This document shows positions 467 through 55,349 of a stretch of 64,000 bases of DNA, piece after piece. The position numbers and the translations under genes were made by a program. This stretch comes from an uncultured Dokdonia sp. (GTDB lineage: Bacteria > Bacteroidota > Bacteroidia > Flavobacteriales > Flavobacteriaceae). The notes under the pieces were generated by a model that was given only the letters and a program-made list of their open reading frames with translations, had not been told where the DNA came from and did not search any database. The first letter of the stretch is position 1. Every line of letters starts with the position of its first letter. Location of the stretch: contig NZ_CANMDS010000003.1 in the NCBI RefSeq assembly GCF_947496725.1, positions 248,001 through 312,000 on the forward strand, written 5' to 3'.

Positions 467-480
467 GCTTTCGCGAAAGC
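467..480. repeat. GCTTTCGCGAAAGC palindrome, site 1
   Basis: Perfect 14-bp core in the intergenic region ahead of kdsB, about 40 bp upstream of its start. The right flank continues as GTAA, matching the extended 20-bp form on that side. See the finding on the whole family. Confidence 0.95.
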
Positions 481-520
481 GTAATTATAACCAAAATAAG
501 ACATTCAAAACGTCAATATA

Positions 521-1267
521 TTGAAAGAAAATCTTAAGATTATAGCAATGATTCCTGCACGTTATGCGGCGTCTAGGTTTCCCGGTAAGATGATGAAAGA
601 TCTTGCAGGTAAGCCTGTTATTGTGCGCACCTATGAGAGTGTAGTGGCCACAAAGTTGTTTGACGAAGTATATGTAGTTACAGATAGTGATGTTATTTAT
701 AAGGCAATAGAAGCCGAGGGCGGTAAAGCCATAATGAGTGTTAAAGAGCACGAGTGCGGTAGTGATAGAATTGCAGAGGCAGTGGCTTCTCTAGATGTAG
801 ATGTGGTTGTAAATGTACAAGGAGATGAACCTTTTACGAGTAGGGAGGACTTAGCACCAGTGCTAGATGTGTTTTATGGAGATGATGCTGTACAAATAGA
901 TCTTGCTAGTGTGATGATGCCTATGAAGGAGGAGCAAGAGATTGTAAACCCTAATAATGTAAAAGTTATTGTAGATAATTTTGACTTTGCACTATACTTC
1001 TCTAGGTCACCACTTCCATATGTGCGCGATAATGAAGCTGGTATAATTACTTATAAACATAAAGGTATTTATGCCTTTAGAAAGCAGGCTATACTTGACT
1101 TTGCATCTATGCATATGACACCCCTTGAAAAGGCAGAAAAAATAGAGTGCATACGATTCTTAGAGTATGGTAAAAAAATTAAAATGGTACGTTCATCAAG
1201 GCTTGCAATAGGTATTGATACTCCAGAAGATCTAGAAAAAGCAATTAAAATTTATTCGAATAAGTAG
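521..1267 (+). CDS. kdsB: 3-deoxy-manno-octulosonate cytidylyltransferase (CMP-Kdo synthetase)
   Basis: This enzyme activates Kdo with CTP to CMP-Kdo for the inner core of lipopolysaccharide, in the cytoplasm. The 248 residues match the usual length of about 245-250. Visible signatures are MIPARYAASRFPGK at the N-terminus (nucleotide-binding loop), VVTDSD, GSDRIAEAV and the VNVQGDEPF motif near residue 99, which carries the metal-binding Asp. The start is probably TTG at 521, because ATG at 548 would remove the first beta strand (KIIAMIPARY). The next gene starts 5 bp after the stop, suggesting a two-gene operon. Identification rests on the family motifs and is secure. Confidence 0.93.
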   Translation: MKENLKIIAMIPARYAASRFPGKMMKDLAGKPVIVRTYESVVATKLFDEVYVVTDSDVIYKAIEAEGGKAIMSVKEHECGSDRIAEAVASLDVDVVVNVQGDEPFTSREDLAPVLDVFYGDDAVQIDLASVMMPMKEEQEIVNPNNVKVIVDNFDFALYFSRSPLPYVRDNEAGIITYKHKGIYAFRKQAILDFASMHMTPLEKAEKIECIRFLEYGKKIKMVRSSRLAIGIDTPEDLEKAIKIYSNK

Positions 1268-1272
1268 CGCAT

Positions 1273-1827
1273 ATGGGACTTGCAAAGTTTATATATAAAA
1301 ATATTTTAGGCTGGAAGGTAAAAGGTGACTTTTCTCAAGACACAGTAAAGAAGGCTGTAGTAATCGCTGTGCCCCACACCAGCTGGCACGATTTTTATAT
1401 GGGTATTTTACTTCGTACTATGCTCGATGTTAAAATTGGCTTCATCGGTAAGAAAGAGCTTTTTAAATGGCCTATGGGACCTATTTTTAAAGCAATGGGA
1501 GGCGCGCCTATAGATCGTACACCAGGTCAAGATAAAGTACAATCTATCGCAAATGTTTTTAAGGATAAAGAGGAGTTTAGACTCACAATAGCCCCAGAGG
1601 GAACACGTAAAAAAGTTGATAAGCTCAAAACAGGGTTTTACTACATTGCTCTTGCAGCAGAGGTGCCTATTATAATGGTTGCTTTTGATTTTGGTAAAAA
1701 GGAGCAACGTATATCTAAGCCTTTATATCCGTCAGGTAATATAGATGAAGATCTTGCACTTATACACGAGTTTTTTAAGGGAGCTGTAGGTAAGGTGCCA
1801 GAATATAGTTTTACTCCAGATGAGTAG
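1273..1827 (+). CDS. PlsC-like 1-acyl-glycerol-3-phosphate acyltransferase family protein
   Basis: Likely membrane-associated acyltransferase acting on a lysophospholipid or another lipid acceptor. It carries the family's catalytic H-x4-D motif (PHTSWHD, residues about 35-41) and the EGTR substrate motif in APEGTRKKVDKLKTGFYYIA (about residue 112). The 184-residue length is shorter than typical PlsC (about 240) but usual for the flavobacterial subfamily. It lies 5 bp after kdsB, so a role in envelope lipid synthesis is reasonable. The exact acyl donor and acceptor cannot be told from sequence. Confidence 0.85.
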   Translation: MGLAKFIYKNILGWKVKGDFSQDTVKKAVVIAVPHTSWHDFYMGILLRTMLDVKIGFIGKKELFKWPMGPIFKAMGGAPIDRTPGQDKVQSIANVFKDKEEFRLTIAPEGTRKKVDKLKTGFYYIALAAEVPIIMVAFDFGKKEQRISKPLYPSGNIDEDLALIHEFFKGAVGKVPEYSFTPDE

Positions 1828-1850
1828 ATATTTTATAAGTACTTAAATAA

Positions 1851-1886
1851 AATGCCTCAATACTATTTAAAGTATTGAGGCATTTT
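1851..1886. terminator. Bidirectional hairpin terminator
   Basis: A near-perfect stem of 14 bp (AATGCCTCAATACT paired with its complement, loop ATTTA) is followed by a T-run on the plus strand. It sits between the convergent ends of the plsC-like gene and dps and could serve both. Confidence 0.85.
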
Positions 1887-1909
1887 TTATTTGTAAGAGT
1901 GATTAGGAT

Positions 1910-2401
1910 CTATGCTTCTTTGTAGGTGCCTGCAGTTTTCTTTCTCCAAGCGTCCAGCATCCAGCTAGTTTTTTCTAATTCACGTATGTAAGCTCCTATG
2001 AGGTCTATGGTACCTTCATCACCGGCATCGTCTGCTTTTTTCACAACAGCGCTTAGTTGTTTGAGAATTTTTCCGTGATCTCCAAGTATCGTGTCTACCA
2101 TATCTCTGTCAGACAGATCAGATTTTGACTCTTTAATGCTAGATGCTTCAAGATAATCTGAGAGATTACTTACTGGTGCAAAACGCAATGTTAGGATACG
2201 CTCTGCAATCTCATCGATTTTAATTTTGGCATCATCATAAAGTTGTTCAAACTGCTCGTGTAAGTCAAAAAAGTTTTCACCAGAAACGTTCCAGTGAAAA
2301 TTGCGAAGTTTTTGGTAGTATACGTGATAGTCAGATAAAAGTATGTTGAGCTCTGTAACTGTCTCTTTAGTTTTTTTTGTGTCTAAGTTTAAATAATTCA
2401 T
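1910..2401 (-). CDS. dps: Dps/ferritin-like DNA-protection protein
   Basis: Dps proteins form 12-subunit shells that oxidise and store iron with hydrogen peroxide and shield DNA in starved or stressed cells. The 163-residue protein has the typical N-terminal helix leading into the ferroxidase signature: FHWNVSGENFFDLHEQFEQLYDD with His, Asp and Glu ligands, then KIDEIAERIL (residues about 38-70). The sequence is full length for the family. It is a single gene facing the kdsB pair, with its start at ATG 2401. No DNA-binding Lys-rich tail is obvious; the N-terminus has some Lys and Thr. Identification is secure; DNA binding is not shown. Confidence 0.93.
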   Translation of the reverse strand: MNYLNLDTKKTKETVTELNILLSDYHVYYQKLRNFHWNVSGENFFDLHEQFEQLYDDAKIKIDEIAERILTLRFAPVSNLSDYLEASSIKESKSDLSDRDMVDTILGDHGKILKQLSAVVKKADDAGDEGTIDLIGAYIRELEKTSWMLDAWRKKTAGTYKEA

Positions 2402-2536
2402 AGTTCTTTGGTTTTTATATAAAATTACAAAGGCTTAGAGGTCTGAGGGTTATTTGAGAGTTGGTTTGGGATAAGTTTAACCCGATATGCTAAGATTGTG
2501 ATAAAAAACAATGTTCTGACGGCATAGAAAATACTT

Positions 2537-2544
2537 TATATTTG
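2537..2544 (+). promoter_or_regulatory. Predicted Bacteroidetes -7 box for the capsule locus
   Basis: TATATTTG fits the TAnnTTTG consensus exactly and lies 16 bp before ATG 2560. A weak -33 element (TTCTG, about 18 bp upstream) is present. It is the only good promoter match ahead of the first capsule gene. Confidence 0.55.
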
Positions 2545-2559
2545 CCAAAAATTAGATGA

Positions 2560-3558: not shown

Positions 3559-3566
3559 TTTTTTTT

Positions 3567-3580
3567 GCTTTCGCGAAAGC
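3567..3580. repeat. GCTTTCGCGAAAGC palindrome, site 2
   Basis: Perfect core in the 38-bp gap between two capsule genes. It follows a run of eight T directly after the upstream stop codon and continues on the right as GTAAA. Confidence 0.95.
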
Positions 3581-3596
3581 GTAAATACAACAATAT

Positions 3597-4877
3597 ATGA
3601 CAAAAATTAAAGTAGGAGTTATAGGGTTAGGCTATGTTGGTCTTCCATTAGCAAGGTTATTTGGAACAAAGTATAATACGGTAGGTTTTGATATTAATCA
3701 AGAGCGTATAGATGAGTTAAGGTCTGGTACTGATAGTACATTAGAAGTGTCTGACGAAGTTCTTCAAAGCGTATTAAAAACTGAGGTAAATGATGCTAAT
3801 GGACTTTTTTGTAGCGCAGATAGTAAGGATATAGAAGACTGTAACTATTATGTAGTTACAGTACCTACACCAGTAGATAAAAATAATAGACCAGTACTCA
3901 CGCCTCTTTATAAAAGTAGCGAGACTGTAGGGAAGGTTCTAAAAAAAGGTGACATTGTTATATATGAAAGCACAGTATATCCTGGAGTAACAGAGGATGA
4001 GTGTGTTCCTGTTTTAGAGCGTGTGAGCGGACTCAAATTTAATGAAGACTTTTATGTAGGCTATTCTCCAGAAAGAATCAATCCAGGAGATAAAGAGCAT
4101 ACTGTAGAAAAAATTCTTAAAGTTACTTCTGGAAGCACACCAGAAATAGGTAAGAAGGTAGATGATTTATATGCTTCTGTGATAACCGCTGGGACGCACT
4201 TAGCGCCTACAATTAAAGTGGCCGAGGCTGCAAAAGTTATTGAAAACTCACAACGGGATATAAACATTGCATTTGTAAATGAGCTGGCTAAGATCTTTAA
4301 CCTTATGGAGATCAATACACACGATGTACTTGAAGCTGCTGGCACAAAATGGAATTTCCTTCCATTTAAGCCAGGTTTAGTTGGTGGACACTGTATAGGT
4401 GTAGATCCTTACTATCTCGCTCAAAAAGCTCAAGAGCTAGGATATCATCCAGAAATTATTCTTGCAGGTAGAAGGCTTAATGACAGTATGGGAGCTTATG
4501 TAGCTGCAGAGGTTGTGAAGCTTATGCTTAAAAATGATATAAAAGTAAAAGGCGCTTCCTTATTATTATTAGGTATAACTTTTAAAGAAAACTGCCCAGA
4601 TGTTAGAAATACGAAGGTTGTTGATGTTGTAAAACATTTAGAAGATTTTGGTGTTAACGTTACTATCTATGACCCTTGGGTAAATGCAGATGAAGTTGAG
4701 CACGAGTATGGTCTCAAAGCCCTAACAGAATTACCGAGCCAAAAGTTTGATTCAATTGTTCAGGCAGTTTCTCACAAAGAATTTGGTGCCTTAGATTTAG
4801 AAGCTCTTAAAAATAATAAATCTGTAGTGTATGATGTTAAAGGAGTTTTAGGCAATAAAGCAGATGCTAAGCTGTAA
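3597..4877 (+). CDS. UDP-N-acetyl-hexosamine 6-dehydrogenase (WbpO/TviB/WbpA family)
   Basis: NAD-dependent enzyme that oxidises C6 of a UDP-HexNAc to the uronic acid in two steps. Visible features are the N-terminal Rossmann motif GVIGLGYVGLPLA, ESTVYPGVTEDECVPVLE, GYSPERINPGDKEH and the active-site loop GLVGGHCIGVDPYYL with the catalytic Cys (about residue 263). A C-terminal UDP-binding half with GITFKENCPDVRNTK follows. The 426 residues are full length. The partner epimerase upstream argues for UDP-GalNAcA. The downstream WbpD-, WlbA- and WbpI-like genes need UDP-GlcNAcA, so this enzyme may serve both routes. Its stop overlaps the rfbB start by 1 nt. Confidence 0.88.
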   Translation: MTKIKVGVIGLGYVGLPLARLFGTKYNTVGFDINQERIDELRSGTDSTLEVSDEVLQSVLKTEVNDANGLFCSADSKDIEDCNYYVVTVPTPVDKNNRPVLTPLYKSSETVGKVLKKGDIVIYESTVYPGVTEDECVPVLERVSGLKFNEDFYVGYSPERINPGDKEHTVEKILKVTSGSTPEIGKKVDDLYASVITAGTHLAPTIKVAEAAKVIENSQRDINIAFVNELAKIFNLMEINTHDVLEAAGTKWNFLPFKPGLVGGHCIGVDPYYLAQKAQELGYHPEIILAGRRLNDSMGAYVAAEVVKLMLKNDIKVKGASLLLLGITFKENCPDVRNTKVVDVVKHLEDFGVNVTIYDPWVNADEVEHEYGLKALTELPSQKFDSIVQAVSHKEFGALDLEALKNNKSVVYDVKGVLGNKADAKL

Positions 4878-5920
4878 TGAACATTCTTATTACAGGAGGA
4901 GCAGGTTTTATAGGTTCTCACGTAGTGAGGCTATTTCTAGAAGTTTTTCCAGAGAGTCATATTTACAATCTTGATGCGCTTACATATGCAGGTAACCTAG
5001 AGAACCTAGCAGATTTAGAAGCGTCTAGCAATTATACATTTATAAAGGGGGACATCAATGATGCCCCCTTTTTGATGAACTTATTTTCCAAATATCAATT
5101 TGATAAGGTAATACACCTAGCAGCAGAGTCTCACGTAGATAGAAGTATTAAAAATCCTCTAGCTTTTGTGCAGACTAACGTCATTGGAACATTAAACTTG
5201 CTCAATGCAGTTAAGGAAATATGGAAAGATAACTTTAATAACAAGCTTTTCTACCATATAAGTACAGACGAGGTGTATGGTACACTTGGTGAGACAGGCT
5301 TGTTTACAGAGACTACGTCATACGACCCAAACTCACCCTATGCCGCGTCTAAGGCAAGCTCAGATCATTTTGTAAGAGCTTATGGAGAAACCTATGGTTT
5401 GCCATATATCATTAGTAATTGCTCTAACAATTACGGACCTAATCAGTTTCCAGAAAAACTCATTCCTCTATTTATAAATAATATTATTTTAAACAAGGCG
5501 CTTCCTGTTTACGGTGATGGAAATTATACAAGAGATTGGTTATTTGTAAAAGATCACGCAAGCGCTATAGCACGTATCTTTAGAGAGGGAAAACTAGGCG
5601 AGACCTACAATATAGGTGGGGTTAATGAATGGAAAAATATTGATCTCGTAAAGTTACTATGTGATAAGATGGATGAGAAGCTTTTGCGAAAGCGTAATAC
5701 CTCTCAATCTCTTATTACCTTTATAAAAGACAGACCAGGTCACGACAAGCGTTATGCGATAGATGCCTCAAAAATTGAAAAAGAACTGGGGTGGAAACCA
5801 TCTGTTACTTTTGAGGAAGGGCTAGAACTCACAATAGATTGGTATCTTGCCAATAGCTCTTGGCTAGAGAACGTCACTTCTGGAGCATATCAAGAATATT
5901 ACAATAAAATGTATACTTAA
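4877..5920 (+). CDS. rfbB: dTDP-glucose 4,6-dehydratase
   Basis: Second step of dTDP-L-rhamnose synthesis: dTDP-glucose to dTDP-4-keto-6-deoxyglucose. NAD-binding [10 protein letters not shown] begins at residue 7. The ISTDEVYG segment holds the Thr-Asp-Glu dehydratase residues, and YAASK supplies Tyr/Lys (about residues 133-162). Near residue 270 a short extra stretch (KLLRKRN) is encoded by an imperfect copy of the palindrome (GCTTTTGCGAAAGC), placed just before the conserved [16 protein letters not shown]. The gene is coupled by 1-nt overlaps to the dehydrogenase before it and to rfbA after it. Confidence 0.95.
5680..5693. repeat. Palindrome variant inside rfbB, site 3
   Basis: GCTTTTGCGAAAGC differs from the core by one base and continues as GTAA. 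It is read in the frame giving Leu-Leu-Arg-Lys-Arg in a variable loop of RfbB. Confidence 0.85.
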
Positions 5921-7328: not shown

Positions 7329-8204
7329 ATGAGTACGCTTTCGCGAAATATACGATTACTCATTACAGGTGGTGGTGGTCAGCTGGCTCAAGCCATAAAG
7401 GAGGAAGAAGCTACTTTTGAGAATGTTACGAGTATACATCTGTCAAAATCTGAATTAGACATCACATCAACATCTTCTATTAAAAAAACCCTTGATTTAC
7501 ATCAACCAGATGTTATAATAAACACAGCCGCATACACCGCTGTAGATGCCGCCGAAGAGGACAAAGAGAAAGCTTTCCTAGTAAATGAAATAGGAGTAAA
7601 GAATCTAGCTCAAGTTTGTAAGGATAATGGAATCAAACTCATTCACATCTCTACAGATTATGTCTTTGACGGAGAAAAACCAGAAGAATATATAGAGGAA
7701 GATATTCCAAATCCAACAACGGTTTATGGCAAGTCTAAACTTGCTGGTGAGCAGGCCATAATTACTTCAGGGCTTCTTGACTACGCTATTATAAGAACAT
7801 CCTGGGTCTACAGTGTTTACGGGAGTAATTTTGTGAAGACTATGTTACGATTAGGTAATGAGAAAGACGAGATTTCGGTTGTAAACGATCAATATGGATC
7901 TCCTACGTTGGCAAATAATCTAGCTTCTGTTATTTTACAGTTGTCAAACGTTCTTACTGCACACAACGCAGGCGTATATCATTATACAAATGAGGGTGTC
8001 ACTACGTGGTACGCTTTCGCGAAAGCGGTATTCAGCTATAAGAAAATGAGTATAAACGTTTTGCCTGTGCCCAGTGACCGCTTTATAACAAAGGCCACGC
8101 GGCCAAAAAATAGTAAATTAGAAAGTTCTAAAATCATCAACCTTTTAGGGATTGAGAACGTACCTTGGGAAGAAAGTCTTGCGAAAATGCTGGTTAAATT
8201 ATGA
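7329..8204 (+). CDS. rfbD: dTDP-4-dehydrorhamnose reductase
   Basis: Last step giving dTDP-L-rhamnose. LLITGGGGQLAQAI is the NAD(P)-binding loop, HISTDYVFDG and YGKSKLAGE supply the catalytic Thr/Tyr/Lys, and RTSWVYSVYGSNFVKTML is typical. Two palindrome sites fall in this gene. A half-palindrome encodes part of the leader MSTLSRNIR ahead of the first strand. A perfect copy encodes AFAKA at WYAFAKAVF, a place where RmlD proteins normally carry WYEFAKAIF-like residues, so there the repeat coincides with a conserved protein motif. The gene abuts rfbC with no gap and overlaps cysQ by 4 nt. Confidence 0.93.
   Translation: MSTLSRNIRLLITGGGGQLAQAIKEEEATFENVTSIHLSKSELDITSTSSIKKTLDLHQPDVIINTAAYTAVDAAEEDKEKAFLVNEIGVKNLAQVCKDNGIKLIHISTDYVFDGEKPEEYIEEDIPNPTTVYGKSKLAGEQAIITSGLLDYAIIRTSWVYSVYGSNFVKTMLRLGNEKDEISVVNDQYGSPTLANNLASVILQLSNVLTAHNAGVYHYTNEGVTTWYAFAKAVFSYKKMSINVLPVPSDRFITKATRPKNSKLESSKIINLLGIENVPWEESLAKMLVKL
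7335..7348. repeat. Half-palindrome at the start of rfbD, site 4
   Basis: TACGCTTTCGCGAAATATA keeps the left arm and centre of the repeat but loses the right arm. It supplies codons 3-7 of rfbD. Confidence 0.75.
8013..8026. repeat. GCTTTCGCGAAAGC palindrome inside rfbD, site 5
   Basis: Perfect core with a TAC left flank, read as Ala-Phe-Ala-Lys-Ala at a conserved position of the protein. Confidence 0.95.
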
Positions 8205-10017: not shown

Positions 10018-10037
10018 TACGCTTTCGCGAAAGCGTA
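10018..10037. repeat. Full 20-bp palindrome TACGCTTTCGCGAAAGCGTA, site 6
   Basis: Perfect extended form starting at the first base after the stop codon of the upstream epimerase gene and ending about 30 bp before the predicted promoter of the UDP-glucose dehydrogenase gene. Confidence 0.97.
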
Positions 10038-13185: not shown

Positions 13186-14271
13186 ATGAAAGTCGTTACA
13201 ATTATAGGAGCTAGACCTCAATTTATTAAATCTGGAGCGGTTAGTAGATCTTTTATAGAGTACAATCAAACCAATCCAAAGGAATCTATAAGTGAGGTTA
13301 TAGTGCATACGGGACAGCATTACGACAGCAATATGAGTGATGTCTTTTTTGAGCAAATGGATATTCCAAAACCTGCATATCAACTCGATATAAATGGACT
13401 TGGACACGGTGCTATGACGGGACAAATGCTAGAGGAAATAGAAAAAGTATTACTTATAGAAAAACCAGATTGGGTGATGGTTTATGGTGATACTAACTCG
13501 ACACTTGCTGGAGCTCTAGCTGCATCAAAACTGCATATTAAATTAGCTCATATAGAAGCAGGGTTACGTTCTTTTAATATGCGTATGCCAGAAGAGGTTA
13601 ATCGTATTCTAACCGATAGAGTAAGTAGTGTGCTTTTTTGCCCCACAGATTCGGCAATAAGTAATCTAGAAAAAGAAGGGTATAATGATCTTGATATCGC
13701 TATTGTTAAGAATGGTGATGTGATGATGGATGCAAGTCTTATGTTTTCCGCTTTCGCGAAAGCACCACAAGAAGAAATCCCATCTAACTTTATCCTTACA
13801 ACTGTTCATAGGGCAGAAAACACTGATGACCCTGAAAGATTAAAGAATATTTTTAAAGCACTAAACACCATATCTCAAGAGACTCCTGTAGTCTTACCAT
13901 TGCACCCTAGAACTAAAAGTTTTATAGAAAAATATGATATACAAATAGGAATTAACCTACACTGTATAGACCCTGTGGGTTATGTTGAAATGTTGTATTT
14001 ACTAAAAAACTGCTCTCTTGTACTAACAGATAGTGGAGGTTTACAAAAAGAAGCATATTTTTTTAAGAAATACTGTCTAACCTTACGTGATGAAACCGAG
14101 TGGGTTGAACTGATAGATAATGGTTTTAACAAACTTGTAGGAGCCGATTTTGAAACTATTATGGCTGCCTTTAAAAATGCTCATTCTCAATCACCAGATT
14201 TTTCGTTAGATCTATATGGTAATGGAGAGGCTAGTAAAAAGATTATAGAAGGTTTACTTAAGCATAAATGA
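13186..14271 (+). CDS. wecB: UDP-GlcNAc 2-epimerase family (WecB/WbpI)
   Basis: Non-hydrolysing C2 epimerase of GT-B fold. GARPQFIKSGAV, VHTGQHYDSNMSDVFFEQM, VMVYGDTNSTLAGALAASKL, HIEAGLRSFNMRMPEEVNR, the LHPRT loop and TDSGGLQKEAYFF are all conserved. The 361 residues match the family. Next to WbpD- and WlbA-like genes it is more likely a WbpI (making UDP-ManNAc3NAcA) than a plain WecB, but this is inferred from context. A perfect palindrome copy encodes AFAKA near residue 190, in a linker between the two domains. Confidence 0.85.
   Translation: MKVVTIIGARPQFIKSGAVSRSFIEYNQTNPKESISEVIVHTGQHYDSNMSDVFFEQMDIPKPAYQLDINGLGHGAMTGQMLEEIEKVLLIEKPDWVMVYGDTNSTLAGALAASKLHIKLAHIEAGLRSFNMRMPEEVNRILTDRVSSVLFCPTDSAISNLEKEGYNDLDIAIVKNGDVMMDASLMFSAFAKAPQEEIPSNFILTTVHRAENTDDPERLKNIFKALNTISQETPVVLPLHPRTKSFIEKYDIQIGINLHCIDPVGYVEMLYLLKNCSLVLTDSGGLQKEAYFFKKYCLTLRDETEWVELIDNGFNKLVGADFETIMAAFKNAHSQSPDFSLDLYGNGEASKKIIEGLLKHK
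13750..13763. repeat. GCTTTCGCGAAAGC palindrome inside the 2-epimerase gene, site 7
   Basis: Perfect core, read as Ala-Phe-Ala-Lys-Ala in SAFAKAPQ. It is the last site before an 11.6-kb stretch without any. Confidence 0.95.
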
Positions 14272-24485: not shown

Positions 24486-25658
24486 ATGTCCAGAGCAAAA
24501 CTTATTAGAATTACCACCGTTCCCATTTCTTTAGATAAGCTTCTAGAGGGACAACTTGCTTTTATGAAAGAGTACTACGAGGTTACAGCTGTTTCATCAC
24601 AAGAGGAAGAGCTTAAAAGAGTAGCAAGCAAGCAAGGTGTACCTTATTTTTTTCTTCCTTTAACTAGAAAGATAACGCCTATACAAGATCTCAAAGCGGT
24701 ATATAGGCTTTATAAGTTTTTGAAAAAGGAAAAACCAGAGATAGTACATACACATACACCTAAGGCTGGTATTGTAGGTATGCTTGCGGCAAGGCTTGCT
24801 GGTGTGCCTCTACGATTACATACAGTAGCGGGTCTCCCTTTACTTGAGGCAACCGGTGCAAAGAGAAAAATACTAGACATAGTTGAAAAACTTACCTACC
24901 GTTGTGCCACAAAAGTGTATCCTAATGCACAAGGTTTAAAAACCATTATAGAAGCGTTAAATTTTACAAAGAACACTAAGCTTAAAGTGATAGGGAAAGG
25001 CTCTTCAAATGGTATTGATACTACGTACTTCTCCCCAGATTATGAATCAAGTGATATGGTAGATGTAGCAAAGAAGCTTCACATATCACAGACTGATTTT
25101 ACATTTATACTGGTAGGTAGGCTTGTAGGAGATAAAGGGGTAAATGAATTAGTAAAAGCATTTGTAACTGTTCAAGAGAAACACCCAGAGACCTCACTTC
25201 TGCTTGTTGGCCCATTAGAAGAAGAGCTAGACCCTCTTATGCCTTCTACACAAGAAACAATTAAAACACATAGTAAGATTTATACAACTGGATATGTGGA
25301 TGATGTGAGGCCTTATTTTGCTTTCGCGAAAGCGTTAACCTTTCCATCGTACAGAGAGGGTTTTCCTAACGTCGTATTACAAGCAGGTGCAATGGGGTTA
25401 CCATCTATAGTGTCTGATATAAATGGATGTAACGAGATTATAGTAAACAACCGCAATGGATTGATTGTTCCTGTAAAAAGTAGTACCGCACTAGAGATAG
25501 CAATGTGTAAACTTATAGAGGATAAGGGACTTTATGATCGGGCTAAGGCAAATGCAAGAAGCGTCATCACTGATAGTTATGAGAGAAGGGAAATATGGCA
25601 AGCATTGCTAGAAGAGTACAGAGGACTATTAAACGGCTTAATGGCCAAAAAAAAATAA
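24486..25658 (+). CDS. Glycosyltransferase family 4 (PglA-like)
   Basis: GT-B glycosyltransferase, 390 residues. IVHTHTPKAGIVGMLAARLAGVPLRLHTVAGLPL (about residues 84-118) is characteristic of the PglA/GT4 subgroup that acts on undecaprenyl-linked bacillosamine-type sugars. FILVGRLVGDKGVNELVKAF begins the C-terminal domain and FPSYREGFPNVVLQAGAMG has the E-x7-E motif. A perfect palindrome encodes AFAKA exactly where related enzymes have an Ala-rich AAAD stretch before FPSYREGFP. It is followed after 3 bp by the first phosphoglycosyl transferase gene. Confidence 0.87.
   Translation: MSRAKLIRITTVPISLDKLLEGQLAFMKEYYEVTAVSSQEEELKRVASKQGVPYFFLPLTRKITPIQDLKAVYRLYKFLKKEKPEIVHTHTPKAGIVGMLAARLAGVPLRLHTVAGLPLLEATGAKRKILDIVEKLTYRCATKVYPNAQGLKTIIEALNFTKNTKLKVIGKGSSNGIDTTYFSPDYESSDMVDVAKKLHISQTDFTFILVGRLVGDKGVNELVKAFVTVQEKHPETSLLLVGPLEEELDPLMPSTQETIKTHSKIYTTGYVDDVRPYFAFAKALTFPSYREGFPNVVLQAGAMGLPSIVSDINGCNEIIVNNRNGLIVPVKSSTALEIAMCKLIEDKGLYDRAKANARSVITDSYERREIWQALLEEYRGLLNGLMAKKK
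25320..25333. repeat. GCTTTCGCGAAAGC palindrome inside a glycosyltransferase gene, site 8
   Basis: Perfect core followed by GTTA, read as Ala-Phe-Ala-Lys-Ala just before the conserved SYREGFPN motif. Confidence 0.95.
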
Positions 25659-27404: not shown

Positions 27405-28553
27405 ATGTCAAGTTCTAATAAAATCTGGTTATCATCTCCACATATGGGAGGTACTGAGCGCAACTTTGTAACAGAAGCTTTTGATACTAACTGGGTCGCT
27501 CCACTTGGGCCTAATGTTAATGGTTTTGAAAATGACCTAGAATTATATCAGGGGCAGGATACTCACGTTGCTGCCTTAAGCTCTGGAACTGCGGCTATTC
27601 ACCTGGCATTAATACAGTGTGGTGTTGAAGCTGGAGACGAAGTAATCTGCCAATCATTTACCTTTTGTGGTAGTATTAATCCTATAAAATATCTGGGAGC
27701 AAAGCCTGTACTTGTAGATAGTGAGTCTACTACCTGGAATATGTGCCCAATTCATTTAGAAGAAGCCATACAAGATAGAATCAAGCAGGGTAAAAAACCT
27801 AAGGCAATTGTTGCTGTACATCTATATGGTATGCCTTATCAGGTTGACTTAATAAATGAAGTTGCTAGCAAATATGATATACCTGTAGTTGAAGATAGTG
27901 CAGAGGCTCTGGGTTCTACCTACAAAGGTCAAAAGTGTGGTACATTTGGTCGTTTTGGCATATTATCATTTAACGGCAATAAGATTATCACGACAAGTGG
28001 TGGTGGGGCTATGGTTTGTCATTCTGAAGAAGATAAAAAGCAAACCGTTTTTCTTGCAACGCAAGCACGTGATGACGCTCCCCATTATGAACATACAACC
28101 ATAGGATACAATTACAGACTAAGTAATATTTCAGCAGGAATAGGAAGAGGTCAAATGGAAGTGCTAGATAAGCATATAGGTCTGCGTAGAGCTATGAATT
28201 CTTTTTACGTTAATGCATTTCGGGATATTGATGGTGTTACTGTTTTTCAAGAACCATCAGAAGATTATTATAGCAATCACTGGCTAAGTGCTATATTAAT
28301 TGATACAAATAAAACAAATGGGATAAGTAGAGAGGACTTACGTCACGCTTTCGCGAAAGCAAATATAGAGTCAAGACCGCTATGGAAACCTATGCACTTG
28401 CAGCCTATTTTTAAAGATGCTCCTTATTATGGTACGGGTGTTGCAGAAGAACTATTTGAGACGGGATTATGTCTTCCTTCTGGATCAAATTTGACAAATG
28501 ACGATAGAGAACGAATTCAAAAAGTTATATTTGAATTATTCAACAACAAATAA
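27405..28553 (+). CDS. PglE-like PLP-dependent sugar aminotransferase (DegT/DnrJ/EryC1)
   Basis: PLP enzyme expected to aminate the 4-keto sugar nucleotide made by the PglF-like protein. Conserved are NVNGFENDLE, ALSSGTAAIHLAL, VVEDSAEALGSTYKG with the PLP-contacting Asp, and FNGNKIITTSGGGAMV with the Schiff-base Lys (about residue 192). RPLWKPMHLQPIF is near the C-terminus. A perfect palindrome encodes AFAKA within DLRHAFAKANIESRPLW, without disturbing the alignment. 382 residues. It could also supply the missing WbpE activity, but its neighbours favour bacillosamine synthesis. Confidence 0.87.
   Translation: MSSSNKIWLSSPHMGGTERNFVTEAFDTNWVAPLGPNVNGFENDLELYQGQDTHVAALSSGTAAIHLALIQCGVEAGDEVICQSFTFCGSINPIKYLGAKPVLVDSESTTWNMCPIHLEEAIQDRIKQGKKPKAIVAVHLYGMPYQVDLINEVASKYDIPVVEDSAEALGSTYKGQKCGTFGRFGILSFNGNKIITTSGGGAMVCHSEEDKKQTVFLATQARDDAPHYEHTTIGYNYRLSNISAGIGRGQMEVLDKHIGLRRAMNSFYVNAFRDIDGVTVFQEPSEDYYSNHWLSAILIDTNKTNGISREDLRHAFAKANIESRPLWKPMHLQPIFKDAPYYGTGVAEELFETGLCLPSGSNLTNDDRERIQKVIFELFNNK
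28347..28360. repeat. GCTTTCGCGAAAGC palindrome inside the aminotransferase gene, site 9
   Basis: Perfect core, read as Ala-Phe-Ala-Lys-Ala. The left flank CAC differs from the extended TAC by one base. Confidence 0.95.
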
Positions 28554-35826: not shown

Positions 35827-37290
35827 TTAGTTTACTGTTTCTTTGGTTTGTGAGGCTGTTTTTGATTCCGCTTTCGCGAAAGCGTCATTAACCCCATAAT
35901 CATATCCTAAAATGGATAGTAGTTGCTCAGAGGTTTGCTGCTCTGCAAAAACGCTAGTTACCAGCTTACCATCTTGATCACGATCTATTAAAACGTGTTT
36001 TGGGGTAGGGATGAGGCAGTGTTGCAATCCGCCAAAACCGCCTATACTTTCTTGATAAGCACCCGTATTAAAAAAGCCTATATACAGTGGTTTATCCTTA
36101 TTATACTTAGGTAAATAGATCCCGTTCATATGCTGCTCGCTGTTATAATAATCATCACTATCACAGGTAAGACCACCTAGTAAAACGCGCTCATATTCCT
36201 TTTGCCAGCCGTTTATGGCAAGCATTACAAAACGTTTATTAATCGCCCAGGTATCTGGTATGGTGGTGATAAATGATGAGTTTATCATATTCCATTTTTC
36301 GCGATCATTCTGTTGTTTTTGATATAGCACTTGGTAAATCGCACCGCCACTTTCTCCTACGGTAAAACTGCCGAACTCTGTAAAAATGTGAGGCACCGCA
36401 ACGCCAGCCTCATCACAAGTTTGCTTAATCTGGCCTATAATCTCGCTCACCATATATGCATAATCATAGTCAAAGGCGAGTGAGTTTTTTATAGGAAAAC
36501 CACCACCTATGTTAAGGCTATCTAGTGACGGGCACACCTTTTTAAGAGAGACATACACCTTCATACATTTAAGAAGCTCGTTCCAGTAGTATGCGGTGTC
36601 ACGTATGCCCGTATTTATAAAAAAGTGCAGCATCTTAAGAGTCACCTTAGGGTTATCCTTTATCTCTTTATTAAAAAAAGGCACAATGTTTTTATAACCC
36701 AGACCTAAACGAGAGGTGTAAAACTCAAACTTAGGCTCCTCTTCTGAGGCGATACGTATACCTATGTTATAATTACCATCTATAGCATCGCTTAGCAGGG
36801 TGATCTCTTCATAATTATCTATAACCGTGATACAGTTTTTATGACCATTGTTTATGAGACGTGCGATGTTTTGAACATACTGGTCACGTTTAAAACCGTT
36901 GCTTATCACAAAGGTGTCGTCATTGATCTTGCCCTGTGCCTTGAGATTTTCTACAATATCTATATCAAAAGCAGAGGATGTCTCAATATGAATATCATTT
37001 TTTAAAGCCTCGTCTAGCACGTGCTTAAAATGTGAACTCTTAGTACAATAGCAGTAGTTATAACTACCGGCATAGTTGTGCTCTTTTATAGCAGCTGCAA
37101 ACCAGGTTTTTGCTCTGTTTATATTATCAGAGATTTTAGGTAGGTATGTAAACTTAAGTGGTGCACCGTGTTCTTTTATAAGTGCCATTAAATCAATCCC
37201 GTGGAACTGGAGCTCATTTGTTTTTAGGGTGAACTCTTCCTGCGGAAAATCAAAAGTTTGATCTATAAGATCAAAGTATTTTGTCTTCAT
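35827..37290 (-). CDS. speA: Biosynthetic arginine decarboxylase (short Bacteroidetes form)
   Basis: PLP fold-III decarboxylase turning arginine into agmatine, the entry to polyamine synthesis. YNYCYCTKSSHFKHVLDEAL contains the PLP Lys (about residue 83). IGGGFPIKNSL is the Gly-rich phosphate loop, and GGLTCDSDDYYN with its conserved Cys-x-Ser-x-Asp lies near residue 375. 487 residues is shorter than E. coli SpeA (about 658) and normal for this phylum. The C-terminal tail DAFAKAESKTASQTKETVN is partly encoded by a palindrome copy. The long structured leader in front suggests RNA-level control. It heads a five-gene operon. Confidence 0.9.
   Translation of the reverse strand: MKTKYFDLIDQTFDFPQEEFTLKTNELQFHGIDLMALIKEHGAPLKFTYLPKISDNINRAKTWFAAAIKEHNYAGSYNYCYCTKSSHFKHVLDEALKNDIHIETSSAFDIDIVENLKAQGKINDDTFVISNGFKRDQYVQNIARLINNGHKNCITVIDNYEEITLLSDAIDGNYNIGIRIASEEEPKFEFYTSRLGLGYKNIVPFFNKEIKDNPKVTLKMLHFFINTGIRDTAYYWNELLKCMKVYVSLKKVCPSLDSLNIGGGFPIKNSLAFDYDYAYMVSEIIGQIKQTCDEAGVAVPHIFTEFGSFTVGESGGAIYQVLYQKQQNDREKWNMINSSFITTIPDTWAINKRFVMLAINGWQKEYERVLLGGLTCDSDDYYNSEQHMNGIYLPKYNKDKPLYIGFFNTGAYQESIGGFGGLQHCLIPTPKHVLIDRDQDGKLVTSVFAEQQTSEQLLSILGYDYGVNDAFAKAESKTASQTKETVN
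35870..35883. repeat. GCTTTCGCGAAAGC palindrome in the 3' end of speA, site 10
   Basis: Perfect core, read on the minus strand as Ala-Phe-Ala-Lys-Ala in the C-terminal tail of SpeA. Confidence 0.95.
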
Positions 37291-37735: not shown

Positions 37736-37755
37736 TACGCTTTCGCGAAAGCGTA
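37736..37755. repeat. Full 20-bp palindrome, site 11
   Basis: Perfect TACGCTTTCGCGAAAGCGTA between the speA leader and the DUF2200 gene. The left context GTGAT is shared with site 14 near 47.1 kb. Confidence 0.97.
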
Positions 37756-38833: not shown

Positions 38834-38847
38834 GCTTTCGCGAAAGC
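38834..38847. repeat. GCTTTCGCGAAAGC palindrome, site 12
   Basis: Perfect core flanked by CAC and GTA, one base short of the full 20-bp palindrome. Intergenic, 50 bp after dispersed repeat R1. Confidence 0.95.
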
Positions 38848-47162: not shown

Positions 47163-47187
47163 ATAACAGAAAACAGCTCAATTATTA

Positions 47188-48362: not shown

Positions 48363-49649
48363 ATGACAAGTACATTTACAGCACTAGGAATCACAAACTC
48401 AATACAAGAAGCACTGGCTGCTCTTGACATCACACAACCTACAGACATACAACAGCAGGCCATACCTGCACTACTTACTTCAAAAAAGGATGTCGTGGCC
48501 CTAGCGCAAACTGGTACTGGTAAAACGCTAGCCTTTGGCGTGCCTTTATTGCAACTTATAGATCGTACTAATCCTACGGTGCAGGCTGTTATACTTGTCC
48601 CTACACGAGAACTAGGACAACAGATATACTCAAACATTGTAGCCTATGCGGCACAATTACCAGAAGTATCGGCAGCGGTGTTTTATGGAGGAATACCTGT
48701 AAAAGAAAATGTAGAACGTCTTAAAGAGCCCGCTCAGATTGTAATTGCAACGCCTGGACGTCTTATAGACTTAATGGAGCGTAAGGCAATAAACATCTCT
48801 CAAGCCAATTATCTTGTGCTCGATGAGGCAGATGAGATGGTAAGTGCTCTTAAAGACAGTATAGATGTTATTGTAGAGACAATGCCTAATAATAGACGTA
48901 CCTTCTTATTTTCTGCTACTATGCCCGGTACGGTTAAACAACTCGTACAAAATTACCTGTCTAAAAATCCGCTAGAGATTACTGCAGAGCGAGCAAATCT
49001 TGCTAGTCACAAAATCACACACGATTATGTAGTGGTGGAGCCTATAGAGAAGCTAGATGTATTAATGCATTTCTTAAACTCAAAAATAGGGGAGCGTGGT
49101 ATTATCTTCTGTAAGACAAAGGCAGCTGTAAATAAACTTGCAAAAAACCTGGCTATTAATAAGTTTTCTTCAGGGGCCTTGCACGGTAGCTTGAGCCAGG
49201 CTATACGTGACCGTATGATGGGACAGTTTAGAGAAGGTCACATAGATATACTCGTAGCGACAGATCTTGCGGCACGTGGTATAGATGTAAAAGATATCTC
49301 TTATGTGGTTAACTACCACTTACCAGAGTTTTATGATATGTATGTACATAGAACGGGACGTACTGCCAGAGCAGGAAAAACAGGCTATGCGCTTACTGTT
49401 TTACAACAAGAAGAGGTTGCAGAAATACCAGAATTTGAAGAAGAGCTGGGAATCACTTTTTCCGCTTTCGCGAAAGCGTCACCTCAAGAAATCGCAGATA
49501 ATAATCTCATACTCTGGGCGCGTAAAATTTTTAAAACAAAGCCTAATCGTGAGCTCTCACCAGAACTAAGAGATAAAGTACACAAGGTTTTTCACCACCT
49601 TACTAAGGAAGAACTTATAGATAAGCTACTTGCAGGGCAGACCTCTTAA
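48363..49649 (+). CDS. DEAD-box RNA helicase
   Basis: ATP-dependent RNA helicase, 428 residues, with all core motifs: a Q-motif near residue 25, AQTGTGKT (about 49), PTRELGQQ, TPGRLIDL, VLDEADEM (about 155), SATMPG, ARGIDV (about 303) and HRTGRTARAG. The C-terminus beyond the helicase core is short and basic. A perfect palindrome encodes AFAKA in the linker ITFSAFAKASPQEI near residue 370. Likely works in ribosome assembly or mRNA turnover, particularly in the cold. It converges on yceI with a 4-nt overlap. Confidence 0.93.
   Translation: MTSTFTALGITNSIQEALAALDITQPTDIQQQAIPALLTSKKDVVALAQTGTGKTLAFGVPLLQLIDRTNPTVQAVILVPTRELGQQIYSNIVAYAAQLPEVSAAVFYGGIPVKENVERLKEPAQIVIATPGRLIDLMERKAINISQANYLVLDEADEMVSALKDSIDVIVETMPNNRRTFLFSATMPGTVKQLVQNYLSKNPLEITAERANLASHKITHDYVVVEPIEKLDVLMHFLNSKIGERGIIFCKTKAAVNKLAKNLAINKFSSGALHGSLSQAIRDRMMGQFREGHIDILVATDLAARGIDVKDISYVVNYHLPEFYDMYVHRTGRTARAGKTGYALTVLQQEEVAEIPEFEEELGITFSAFAKASPQEIADNNLILWARKIFKTKPNRELSPELRDKVHKVFHHLTKEELIDKLLAGQTS
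49464..49477. repeat. GCTTTCGCGAAAGC palindrome inside the helicase gene, site 15
   Basis: Perfect core with GT on the right, read as Ala-Phe-Ala-Lys-Ala. Confidence 0.95.
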
Positions 49650-50212: not shown

Positions 50213-50329
50213 AGGTTTAATATTTTGGAAGTAAAACTAGAAGCACACCGCTACAAAAGTGTCAAAAGAATGTAAAAGAACTGTCAACGGTTGTAAAATC
50301 TCGATTTTTTGGCGGTTCTTTGTGATAAG

Positions 50330-51199
50330 ATGAATAAAACGAGACTCTTATTAGTATGTCTTTTTGTAATGTGTGCAAGCATATCTTGGTTATTACCTCA
50401 AGCCGATATGCCGGCTACTATGCGTGAAGAACGCAGTAAGATTGTTATACGCGAAGTGGGTAACCAGCTATTACTTGCACAACGAGACACTATATCTCGC
50501 ATACTACCTGTGCGTCAACTTGAGAGCGACATTTATGTACTTGCTTTCTCTAGTGATTTATCCTTCTTACCAGAACAGCTTGTAGCCATCGCTAGTGAGC
50601 AATTTAGTAGAGCTCAGTTTCCTAAAAATTATATTATCGAAGTTTATCAGTGCTATGATAATGAGGTAGCTTATAGTTTTGAAATCAATAAAACCATTGA
50701 AAACACGATTGTTCCCTGCTCTGGCCGCAAGTTGCCGTTAGATTGTTATACGATCAAAATTCAATTTATAGAAGAAAATATTGCCCCTCCTCAAACATCC
50801 TATTCAAAGATGGGACTATTATTTATAGCAGGTGGTGCTTTATTATTTTTAGGATTCCGCTTTCGCGAAAGCAAAAAAGAAACCCTTCCCAGTACCGAAA
50901 AGATAGTAACTATAGGAAGTTTTTCTTTCTATCCAGAACAGCATAAACTAGTAAAGTCACCCGATGAACTTGTTTTGTCTAAAAAGGAATGTGAACTACT
51001 AACCCTATTTGCTAGTAGGCCTAACGAGGTGATAAAACGTGAAGAGTTGTCTAAAAAAGTATGGGAAGATAAAGGGGTGATTGTAGGTAGAAGTCTAGAT
51101 ACCTACGTCTCAAAACTTAGAAAAAAACTACAGACAGATCCTGCTATAAAGCTTACAAACATACACGGAGTAGGGTATAAGCTAGAGATAAAGGAGTAA
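50330..51199 (+). CDS. Membrane-anchored winged-helix transcriptional regulator
   Basis: 289 residues from ATG 50330 (MNKTRLLLVCLFVMCASISW). A signal anchor precedes a periplasmic domain of about 130 residues with two Cys (QCYDNE, VPCSGRKLPLDCY). Then come a membrane helix (MGLLFIAGGALLFLGF, about 161-177) and a cytoplasmic OmpR-type winged helix (about 190-289; LSKKECELLTLFASRPNEVIKREELSKKVWE, DTYVSKLRKKL, NIHGVGYKL). A periplasmic signal would thus reach DNA directly. The topology is the mirror image of ToxR. The palindrome encodes RFRES at the membrane/cytoplasm junction. TTG 50309 upstream is unlikely. Confidence 0.82.
   Translation: MNKTRLLLVCLFVMCASISWLLPQADMPATMREERSKIVIREVGNQLLLAQRDTISRILPVRQLESDIYVLAFSSDLSFLPEQLVAIASEQFSRAQFPKNYIIEVYQCYDNEVAYSFEINKTIENTIVPCSGRKLPLDCYTIKIQFIEENIAPPQTSYSKMGLLFIAGGALLFLGFRFRESKKETLPSTEKIVTIGSFSFYPEQHKLVKSPDELVLSKKECELLTLFASRPNEVIKREELSKKVWEDKGVIVGRSLDTYVSKLRKKLQTDPAIKLTNIHGVGYKLEIKE
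50859..50872. repeat. GCTTTCGCGAAAGC palindrome inside the regulator gene, site 16
   Basis: Perfect core read in a different frame from the others (Arg-Phe-Arg-Glu-Ser), forming the basic juxtamembrane stretch of the regulator. Confidence 0.95.
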
Positions 51200-51245: not shown

Positions 51246-51253
51246 TAGCTTTG
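51246..51253 (+). promoter_or_regulatory. Predicted -7 box for the following secreted-protein gene
   Basis: TAGCTTTG matches TAnnTTTG; the same octamer recurs at 51265-51272. The first leaves a leader of about 16 nt before ATG 51276. No good -33 element. Confidence 0.4.
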
Positions 51254-51275
51254 TAATTATTACTTAGCTTTGGCT

Positions 51276-51845: not shown

Positions 51846-51878
51846 ATAATAACGAGATTACAACAAACACAACCAACT

Positions 51879-53894: not shown

Positions 53895-54018
53895 TACGAT
53901 TTACAAGAGATTTGTATTTACGATATTTGCCACGTAAAAAATTAAAAATAGTGATGAGGAAGAAGAGATTACAATCACTAGGACTTAATTAAAACAACCA
54001 AAATAAAATTAAGATATA

Positions 54019-54267
54019 ATGATTAAAGCATTTTTTAATAGACTCTTTGGGTCTACTAAAGCATCGATAAGAAAAGAAGGAAAGGTAAAATTTTTCAATA
54101 CAAAAAAAGGGTTTGGATTTATTGCCATAGACAATTCTGACGAGGAGGTTTTTGTACATACTACAAACGTAACTGGAAGATTGAGAGAGAATGACAAAGT
54201 TACATTTGAAGTAGAAGACGGAGAAAAAGGACCTAGCGCTGTAAATGTAAAGCGAGTAAAAAAATAA
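54019..54267 (+). CDS. Cold-shock-domain protein with N-terminal extension
   Basis: 82 residues. The cold-shock domain starts at about residue 21 (KVKFFNTKKGFGFIAIDNSDEEVFVHTTNV) with both RNA-binding motifs RNP1 (GFGFI) and RNP2 (VFVHT). The first 20 residues (MIKAFFNRLFGSTKASIRKE) form a basic amphipathic extension absent from classical CspA. It could be a membrane-surface or RNA-contacting helix. It has its own terminator, followed directly by a palindrome. Confidence 0.9.
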   Translation: MIKAFFNRLFGSTKASIRKEGKVKFFNTKKGFGFIAIDNSDEEVFVHTTNVTGRLRENDKVTFEVEDGEKGPSAVNVKRVKK

Positions 54268-54295
54268 TATTCGTTTTACAAGATCTGTATTATTA

Positions 54296-54330
54296 ACTCC
54301 ATAAGCACAATAGTGTTTATGGAGTTTTTT
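54296..54330 (+). terminator. Hairpin terminator of the cold-shock gene
   Basis: CTCCATAA-GCAC pairs with GTG-TTTATGGAG around a short loop, then a run of T that runs straight into palindrome site 17. Confidence 0.85.
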
Positions 54331-54350
54331 TACGCTTTCGCGAAAGCGTA
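54331..54350. repeat. Full 20-bp palindrome, site 17
   Basis: Perfect TACGCTTTCGCGAAAGCGTA immediately after the T-run of a terminator. Confidence 0.97.
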
Positions 54351-54478
54351 ATACAGCTATATAAAAGAATCGCAGAGTATAAAGCGGCTTTTACAGAATG
54401 TCATACTGTAACGACTTAAAATCAAAAAAGCACACGTTTAATCACAGTACATTTATCAAACAAAAAGATAAGCTTACT

Positions 54479-55246
54479 ATGACAAAAACACTAGCCATAC
54501 TACTAATTGTGATGAATGTAGCCCTTGTAAATGCTACATCTCCTAATGACTATCGTAAAAAGAAGGATATTAAGATAACACCAACTGCGACCACAGATGG
54601 TACGTATATCTATGTAGATATACGCACGGCAGATCAAGGGGTTATCACTTCATTTTTAAGAAGAGGTTTTACAGTATATTTTGATAAAAAGGGAAAAAAG
54701 AAAAAAAGAGTAGGAGTAAGCAGTCCTACATTAGATCGAAAAAAACTAGGTAATACTCCGCCAAATTCTAACGAAAGAGAATCTAGAAACTCTGACGAAG
54801 AAAGAGAATTGCCCGTTGCACGTATGATAGAAGATATAGACCGTAAAGCTGTTTATATAAAAGACGACAGCGCGCAAGAGTTTCACCTAGACCTTAATGC
54901 GCTAGATATCACAATTAACTACAGTTATCAAAAAGAACCTCAAGGAGGTATTCTTGTATATAAACTCAGAATACCTGTTTCAAAAATTGATGAGAATCCT
55001 ATTGATTTTGAAAAACTAACTTTAGGTATCATTTCTACACCACTACCCGAAAGAGAAAATCAAGGCCCTCAAGACCGTGGAGGTTTGTCTCTAGGTGGTG
55101 GCGGTAGATCACAAGGTGGTCCTGGTGGAGGAAACCGTGGTGGAGGTGGAGGCCGTCCCGGTGGACAAGGACAGGGTGGTGGTCAAAAAAAGGCACCACA
55201 ACAATCTCAAGACGTAGCGCTATGGTTTGGTCTCACAATAAACTAA
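54479..55246 (+). CDS. Secreted protein with Gly-rich C-terminal region
   Basis: 255 residues from ATG 54479 (MTKTLAILLIVMNVALVNA signal peptide); the frame continues upstream to 54398, but without a sensible N-terminus. The first part (residues about 25-185) is a beta-rich domain with VYFDKKGKKKKRVGVSSP. It is followed by a low-complexity stretch of Gly with Gln, Arg and Pro (about 198-240) and a final hydrophobic strand QDVALWFGLTIN. The final strand after a flexible linker might anchor in the outer membrane. The family was not recognised. Confidence 0.65.
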   Translation: MTKTLAILLIVMNVALVNATSPNDYRKKKDIKITPTATTDGTYIYVDIRTADQGVITSFLRRGFTVYFDKKGKKKKRVGVSSPTLDRKKLGNTPPNSNERESRNSDEERELPVARMIEDIDRKAVYIKDDSAQEFHLDLNALDITINYSYQKEPQGGILVYKLRIPVSKIDENPIDFEKLTLGIISTPLPERENQGPQDRGGLSLGGGGRSQGGPGGGNRGGGGGRPGGQGQGGGQKKAPQQSQDVALWFGLTIN

Positions 55247-55299
55247 ATCTCCCCATTTGATAAAGCACCAATAATTGGTGGTTGACTATGTATGTTTAA

Positions 55300-55329
55300 A
55301 AAGGCTTCTCTTGATTGAGAGGCTTTTTT
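55300..55329 (+). terminator. Hairpin terminator of the Gly-rich protein gene
   Basis: Stem AAGGCTTCTC with GAGAGGCTTT (two G-T pairs), loop TTGATT, then seven T that lead directly into palindrome site 18. Confidence 0.8.
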
Positions 55330-55349
55330 TACGCTTTCGCGAAAGCGTA
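55330..55349. repeat. Full 20-bp palindrome, site 18
   Basis: Perfect TACGCTTTCGCGAAAGCGTA adjoining the T-run of the terminator, as at site 17. It is the last copy in the window. Confidence 0.97.

Follow-up and report, generated by a model that had tools for sequence, protein, structure and literature searches.

A 14-bp palindrome, GCTTTCGCGAAAGC, recurs throughout the genome from which the 64-kb stretch analyzed here was taken (contig NZ_CANMDS010000003.1, positions 248,001 to 312,000; hereafter the window). We find that this palindrome is a real, strongly selected and evenly spaced genome-wide signal. The whole source genome (G000; 3.29 Mb in 121 contigs) holds 905 copies, about one per 3.6 kb, and no copy of a reversed control sequence. 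Within the window, 18 sites are present at two or fewer mismatches, of which 15 are perfect and three are variants; 100 shuffles of the window gave a mean of 0.13 copies and a maximum of 2. A preliminary description of the window had listed these 18 sites and put the chance expectation far below one copy. A mismatch search returned the same set at the same starts, save that the half site begins at 7337 rather than 7335. The palindrome is in kind like highly iterated palindromes (HIPs), DNA uptake sequences and Chi, and is a shown member of none of these classes.

A selected, evenly spaced palindrome

In a 400-kb sample of the source genome (G000:C2:200001-600000), GCTTTCGCGAAAGC is the commonest 14-bp palindrome, with 116 copies against one for the next palindrome shown, and the top 12 14-mers by frequency all overlap it. 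The preliminary description had named two findings that would undo it, a count explained by base composition and descent of the copies from one element with longer shared flanks. Neither is the case: base composition predicts ~0.0006 copies in the sample, and past outward position 4 no base exceeds 61% among the G000 copies. All 18 genomes of the genus that were searched, G000 included, carry 369–905 copies, and 21 more distant genomes searched alongside them carry none. Across the family, 80 of 397 genomes (237 genera sampled) have at least one match. Dense copies are confined to three of the 237 genera, g1 (905 and 857 copies), g26 (578, 664 and 609) and g206 (408), the other matching family genomes having 1–19 copies each. 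Among 148 genomes drawn from the order, G000 aside, matching genomes have one to four. The motif combines an abundance far above expectation throughout the genome, as in HIPs, with over-representation restricted to a lineage, as in uptake sequences. Named records with the 20-bp extended form are mostly Dokdonia and Nonlabens, among the matches listed, and G000 DNA is 89.5% identical across 7.5 kb to a named Dokdonia metagenome-assembled genome (MAG). Both observations support the preliminary assignment to Dokdonia; g1 is probably Dokdonia because of the latter identity, and g26 is likely Nonlabens.

Selection on the core is evident from how rarely it is degraded. One-mismatch copies number 9 beside 116 perfect ones in G000 and 11 beside 115 in G016 (400 kb each). 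Between these two genomes (94.5% identity), 111 of 115 aligned G000 sites are kept, compared with 56% of random 14-mers, and the seven site differences in either direction are all substitutions without an indel. In the comparison with G005 (80% identity), from which 33 G000 sites that could not be aligned were left out, 67 of 83 aligned sites are kept, compared with 12.4% of random 14-mers. Of the 16 that are lost, 10 carry a single-base difference and two have gaps within the core. Divergence between G000 and G005 is 3.1% in the core (37/1191) and ~20% in the flanks, and retention is alike for genic (40/50) and intergenic (27/33) sites. Few sites are shared across genera: in 58 best-hit segments (53 kb) of Dokdonia and Nonlabens-type genes, where BBFL7 was treated as Nonlabens, two of 14 genic sites are common, nine are Dokdonia-only and three are Nonlabens-only, and one of three genic sites compared with G222 is common. 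Thus, because retention is high at 80% identity and cross-genus sharing is low, an individual site is long protected within the genus, whereas most positions differ between genera. G000 also behaves as if partial sites were avoided. In its 400-kb sample, TCGCGA outside the central decamer occurs 23 times against ~52 expected, and TTCGCGAA outside the decamer is absent.

The copies are, in addition, evenly spaced. Over 400 kb each, the coefficient of variation (CV) of spacing is 0.54 in G000, 0.57 in G016 and 0.48 in G005, against 0.96–0.97 under a gene-structured null in which the genic and intergenic site counts are held fixed; in each genome, none of 2000 simulations was as low. Neighbors closer than 1 kb number 2, 2 and 3, where 21–27 are expected (26.6 in G000). 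The G000 and G016 results are not independent, since most sites are common to both. In probable Nonlabens, three 80-kb samples of 14–18 sites each give CVs of 0.38–0.42, with no simulated null, and in G222 the CV is 0.68 over the first 97 listed sites, with no neighbors under 1 kb against 12 expected. At the scale of the chromosome, 40 stretches of 20 kb in G016 hold 230 sites, two to eight in each (dispersion index 0.40), and show no density trend from the origin, which lies near 740 kb by its skew switch and parS-like sites, to the terminus. Evenness is weaker among the first 100 sites of G016 (CV 0.74, p = 0.001), which include two gaps of ~17 kb. Even spacing agrees with a signal for which the interval between successive copies is important. 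A regional role like that of parS or matS, one form of the chromosome organization suggested earlier, is not supported, because density is uniform, without the regional clustering of parS, Noc or MatP sites, and canonical parS-like sites are kept at the origin.

Gene context points away from a role in expression. A simple caller based on open reading frames (ORFs) places 65 of the 115 classified G000 sites inside genes and 50 between them, one site having been dropped. Intergenic density per kilobase is 4–12 times genic density across three genomes and in every orientation of the neighboring genes. Gene regulation or termination is disfavored because all neighbor orientations are enriched and genic and intergenic sites are equally conserved.

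Strand-asymmetric flanks and one-arm sites

The core is extended outward by G-T-A, and beyond that extension lies a zone depleted of G. At 246 sites not selected by flank, G makes up 7% of the outward strand at positions 3–19 and returns to 16–17% by 31–40 nt, close to the background of 18%; equivalently, the 5′ flank of each strand is G/T-rich and C-poor over ~30 nt. Flank A+T is 67% against 62% genome-wide, so that the bias is mainly one of keto and amino bases by strand, and the flank bases are individually not conserved between species. Within this zone, A recurs preferentially at outward positions three apart, starting with position 4. At 79 intergenic sites, each counted once and not selected by flank, positions 4–15 carry 4.59 in-phase A per site, compared with 2.70 and 3.24 in the other phases (p = 3e-10 and 2e-8), and positions 7–15 alone give p = 2e-7 and 2e-6. 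A set of 242 intergenic half-sites, partly 20-mer-selected, gives p = 7e-12 and 1e-7 over positions 4–30. Genic sites show a weak 3-nt phase at positions 16–27 and 28–39, to which codons may contribute. Weaker A-phase repeats occur at intergenic sites of G005 and of probable Nonlabens, and phased G/T-rich flanks are present in two of the three dense genera. In Dokdonia, period 3 is the dominant component of the A spectrum; probable Nonlabens also has raised periods of 2, 3.5 and 10–10.5.

No pairing of left and right flanks was found past position 4, and a longer hairpin was rejected. Bending or groove shape by itself would not be expected to produce a keto/amino strand bias together with a local triplet phase. 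Because of that bias, and because the flanks do not pair beyond position 4, a single-strand signature is a natural reading. A single strand held at three bases per subunit would be one natural form of it, for which RecA would be the obvious candidate.

Not all copies are symmetrical. The central decamer TTTCGCGAAA occurs 136 times in G000, with both GC arms at 116 sites, one arm at 20 and no arm at none; in G005 the respective numbers are 100, 31 and 0. The one-arm sites avoid full sites. Only 3 of 20 in G000 lie within 1 kb of one, where 55% are expected (p = 3e-4), and 8 of 31 in G005, where 49% are expected (p = 0.008); some are common to both genomes. With one-arm sites counted in, the CV is 0.52 and 0.56. 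At 65 one-arm sites G depletion is stronger on the side of the intact arm (p = 0.011), and by eye the A phase appears on that side only. That one-arm sites keep away from full sites, and that G depletion is stronger on the intact side, suggests that each half with its flank may be one unit.

What the palindrome may do

As our best reading we tentatively propose a role in RecA-type homologous recombination or in the processing of DNA ends, in which the palindrome would mark the whole chromosome as “self” and would work like Chi in both directions. On this view each half would be a directional unit, 5′-(~30 nt, G/T-rich and C-poor, the last ~12 triplet-phased)-GCTTTCGCGAAA, and the palindrome would be two such units overlapping back to back, so that DNA ends arriving from either side would meet a correctly oriented signal. 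The core would be recognized by a factor, perhaps a dimeric DNA-binding protein or a lineage-altered helicase-nuclease of the AddAB type. The strand left as a 3′ tail would then be keto-rich and triplet-phased, suited to the start of a RecA-type filament. The sequences show the copy number, core selection, even spacing, flank asymmetry with its local 3-nt phase, gap-filling one-arm sites, lineage restriction and presence on contigs with temperate-phage genes; we infer a protein that reads the palindrome, a role of the flanks in single-stranded form, and recombination as the process. Like Chi of RecBCD and AddAB, the motif occurs once per few kilobases across the chromosome with G/T-rich DNA 5′ of the site. 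It differs from Chi in being long and two-directional. One study reports that RecA forms its most stable filaments on TGG repeats and that the DNA around Chi is TG-rich (PMC3763553).

Several observations weigh against the recombination reading. The same study (PMC3763553) reports no enhanced RecA nucleation on Chi or TG-rich DNA. At intergenic sites the 3-nt phase ends after about four triplets and is absent from positions 16–27 and 28–39 (p = 0.4–0.8), and so short a phased zone weakens the case for a RecA filament. The intact and broken sides of the 65 one-arm sites do not differ in A+C content (p = 0.84). In probable Nonlabens the helical period of 10–10.5 equals period 3 for T and reaches ~60% of it for A, and in G222 G depletion is limited to the first few bases, with no phase. 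Divergence near sites between G000 and G016 shows neither a dip nor a rise, and altered divergence was dropped as a trace of recombination. Known Chi sites are 5–8 nt long and asymmetric; the motif here is a 14-bp palindrome, asymmetric only in its one-arm form. Finally, no reader protein was found among the families profiled (ParB helix-turn-helix, PDDEXK_1 and three methyltransferase families). PDDEXK_1 proteins of AddA/AddB size occur once or twice in 16 of 16 genomes searched, as open frames of ~900 and 1060 aa in G000, G016 and G005 and as a single match in G042 and G273. They are presumably AddB and AddA, and they are also present in motif-free genomes. A fuller version of the reading would make the palindrome the first recombination or self-recognition signal of Bacteroidota, built of two overlapping units, its flanks triplet-tuned to a RecA-type filament, serving ends from either side, spaced by selection every 3–5 kb and acquired by the temperate phages of its hosts. 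Taken whole, we consider that version rather unlikely.

Two other roles suggested earlier, genome-wide organization and uptake, are close rivals of recombination. It is possible, if doubtful, that the palindrome is a nucleoid-organizing site, at which a dimeric protein bound every 3–5 kb would bridge or loop the chromosome while the extended flank provides further contacts. Even spacing, uniform density from origin to terminus and conservation of positions within the genus all fit, and the short reach of the 3-nt phase could reflect direct protein contact. The sites of parS, Noc and MatP are palindromes of 13–16 bp read by dimeric organizers, a likeness in size. They differ from the motif here, which has far more copies, no regional clustering and no extra ParB. 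Indeed, 19 of 20 genomes have a single ParB helix-turn-helix protein and the motif-poor G133 has two, so that an extra ParB or Noc paralogue was rejected as the reader, and parS-like sites stay at the origin. Nor does nucleoid organization readily explain strand-asymmetric G depletion over ~30 nt. An uptake sequence, for which an outer-membrane or pilus receptor would prefer DNA with the palindrome while biased uptake and recombination spread and maintain it, is likewise possible but doubtful. The sites are dispersed, lineage-specific, both genic and intergenic and evenly spaced, and turnover of positions between genera is a prediction of uptake drive. The motif shares with the uptake sequences of Neisseriaceae and Pasteurellaceae the character of a lineage-specific tag dispersed through self DNA. 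None of the known uptake sequences is palindromic, and the motif departs from them further in its few near-miss copies and its keto-rich phased flanks, for which uptake offers no obvious reason. Natural competence occurs in other members of the Flavobacteriaceae, and R. columbina favors its own DNA, for which no uptake sequence has been established (PMC7965970). Mismatched forms of known uptake sequences are over-represented (PMC1939737), whereas one-mismatch copies are rare here (9 against 116).

Less probable still, and in our view improbable, is a HIP-like origin in which DNA methylation and mismatch repair would leave the palindrome as a by-product and an orphan methyltransferase would recognize part of its interior, for example TCGCGA. 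The resemblance to HIP1 (GCGATCGC) and the alternate HIPs is real, in that each is a short perfect palindrome, hugely over-represented and lineage-specific, with letters lost mostly from the outer arms. The preliminary comparison with HIP1 and uptake sequences is fair as a statement that the motif works like them: it is dispersed, genic and intergenic, lineage-specific and under selection. Density in Synechocystis is one HIP1 per 1.1 kb (PMC6604393), against ~1 per 3.6 kb here, and cyanobacterial HIP sequences generally accompany orphan methyltransferases (PMC4390886). The palindrome here differs from HIP1 in its 14-bp length and asymmetric flanks, and its inner core is not frequent alone, TCGCGA being below expectation outside the decamer and TTCGCGAA absent there. 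No methyltransferase of the three families profiled is common to the motif-rich genomes. PF00145 is missing from 6 of 10, PF01555 from 7 (and below cut-off in one further) and PF02086 from 5, and all three are missing from the motif-rich G008 and G273. Such patchiness leaves a link to these three families, and to that extent the suggested methylation role, unsupported. A repetitive extragenic palindromic (REP)-like mobile element or a terminator hairpin is very improbable, despite the short perfect palindrome and the 4–12-fold denser intergenic copies. Sites in genes form the majority (65/115), losses are mostly single substitutions rather than insertions, there are no long shared flanks, and random scatter would not yield even spacing. 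Moreover, T-richness before the core and A-richness after it are the reverse of a terminator U-tract. A REP-like 18-nt palindrome of Caldithrix abyssi, also over-represented and distributed along the genome, has 38 perfect copies, mostly intergenic (PMC5317091).

We found no description of the palindrome among the papers listed by full-text literature searches, with subscription papers mostly outside their scope. The 14-mer string gave no match there, and the decamer string occurs in 10 papers, none of which, judged by title, deals with the subject. The literature searched also yielded no uptake, Chi or HIP signal for Flavobacteriaceae, and a term search of Elhai's HIP paper returned no Flavobacteria or Bacteroidetes. 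New beyond the first observation are the even spacing, the phased strand-asymmetric flanks, the one-arm sites and transfer on mobile DNA. Known sequence signals that span a whole chromosome are few, and the present one is unusually clean. Because it is long, rarely degraded, evenly spaced and dense in few genera, its reader should be findable by a simple DNA pull-down, and the phase and strand asymmetry of the flanks offer a clue to its mode of action that can be tested.

Mobile DNA, other motifs and sites in the window

Copies outside the motif-rich genera are partly explained by transfer, whose direction would have been out of those genera. All 16 copies in G108 fall within a single 78-kb block (C3:32331-110029; L400 is its part 54501-59000) that also holds a CusA/CzcA-type resistance-nodulation-division (RND) efflux gene and an outer-membrane efflux gene. 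This efflux region is 78% identical to G005 DNA (L301), with two sites in common. Of 12 motif-poor genomes with an efflux homologue of at least 87% identity, 11 carry 3–17 copies and G071 carries none; 8 of 19 motif-poor genomes with at least three copies in the sample are without such a homologue. The efflux island seems to have moved among ~12 Flavobacteriaceae genera, taking the palindrome along. In Muricauda sp. TY007 (L024) the island lies near a tyrosine integrase. Decay of sites in the recipient is hinted at by three central-base variants beside 16 perfect copies in G108, against two beside 116 in G000 (Fisher p = 0.019, small numbers). The motif also serves as a natural watermark of DNA exported from motif-rich genera, such as the metal-efflux island elsewhere in the family.

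Some contigs with temperate-phage genes also carry sites. Eight IMG/VR contigs, among the matches listed and chosen for their matches, have two to six matches to GCTTTNNNNAAAGC, and five have four to six in 24–40 kb. Two of these five carry temperate-phage genes, an integrase and a tape measure in one and a transposase in the other. The 22 half-sites of the five contigs have 12% G and an A phase, but these flanks prove little, since a small set of low-GC control contigs (19 half-sites, 16% G) is A-phased too. The related phages P12024S and P12024L, of a Nonlabens-group host, have no sites, and a 32-nt motif query returned no convincing plasmid or phage record. The idea that foreign DNA is site-poor was dropped. 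In five stretches of G000 that G016 lacks (16.3 kb) there is one site, where the regional density predicts ~4.7, but 11 segments unaligned to the G005 stretch (76 kb), some of which simply lie past its ends, hold 23, a normal density. In an unclassified Flavobacteriaceae MAG (L026:147-4872), the palindrome adjoins a TOTE primase-helicase gene and an AbiEii/DUF6088 pair.

No other dispersed palindrome of at least 12 bp at three or more scattered places was found in 20-kb stretches of 34 other Flavobacteriaceae genomes (six more of the 40 chosen were too short), a survey blind to motifs rarer than ~1 per 7 kb. Two candidates were dropped, TGATGGTACCATCA as a tandem array and GTTCCACGTGGAAC as parS-like. 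G064 (L324:1797-3162) and G222 (L336:12135-13863) contain tandem repeats of 273 bp and 576 bp, each with a GGTACC-centered palindrome. Certain 10-mers, ATACACGTTG and ACAACGTGTA among them, recur ~12 times in 18.8 kb of G077 (L353), never closer together than 500 bp.

The sites of the window are listed below, with no strand assigned. The four copies of the full 20-bp form (cores at 10021, 37739, 54334 and 55333) all lie between ORFs, as first described.

467–480, perfect 14-bp palindrome, upstream of the ORF beginning at 521
3567–3580, perfect palindrome, intergenic (3558/3597)
5680–5693, one-mismatch variant GCTTTTGCGAAAGC, within ORF 4877–5920
7337–7350, one-arm site GCTTTCGCGAAATA, the decamer with a single GC arm, at the beginning of ORF 7329–8204
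8013–8026, perfect palindrome, within ORF 7329–8204
10018–10037, full 20-bp form TACGCTTTCGCGAAAGCGTA, intergenic
13750–13763, perfect palindrome, within UDP-GlcNAc 2-epimerase gene 13186–14271
25320–25333, perfect palindrome, within glycosyltransferase gene 24486–25658
28347–28360, perfect palindrome, within DegT/DnrJ aminotransferase gene 27405–28553
35870–35883, perfect palindrome, within decarboxylase-family gene 35827–37290 (gene on the minus strand)
37736–37755, full 20-bp form, intergenic
38834–38847, perfect palindrome, no overlapping ORF of at least 100 aa
43943–43956, one-mismatch variant CCTTTCGCGAAAGC, no overlapping ORF of at least 100 aa
47149–47162, perfect palindrome, intergenic
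49464–49477, perfect palindrome, within DEAD-box helicase gene 48363–49649
50859–50872, perfect palindrome, within ORF 50309–51199
54331–54350, full 20-bp form, intergenic
55330–55349, full 20-bp form, intergenic

Positions 2560–30572 of the window are probably a surface-polysaccharide locus; all eight ORFs tested there are of polysaccharide biosynthesis (epimerases, UDP-sugar dehydrogenases, a glycosyltransferase and an aminotransferase).

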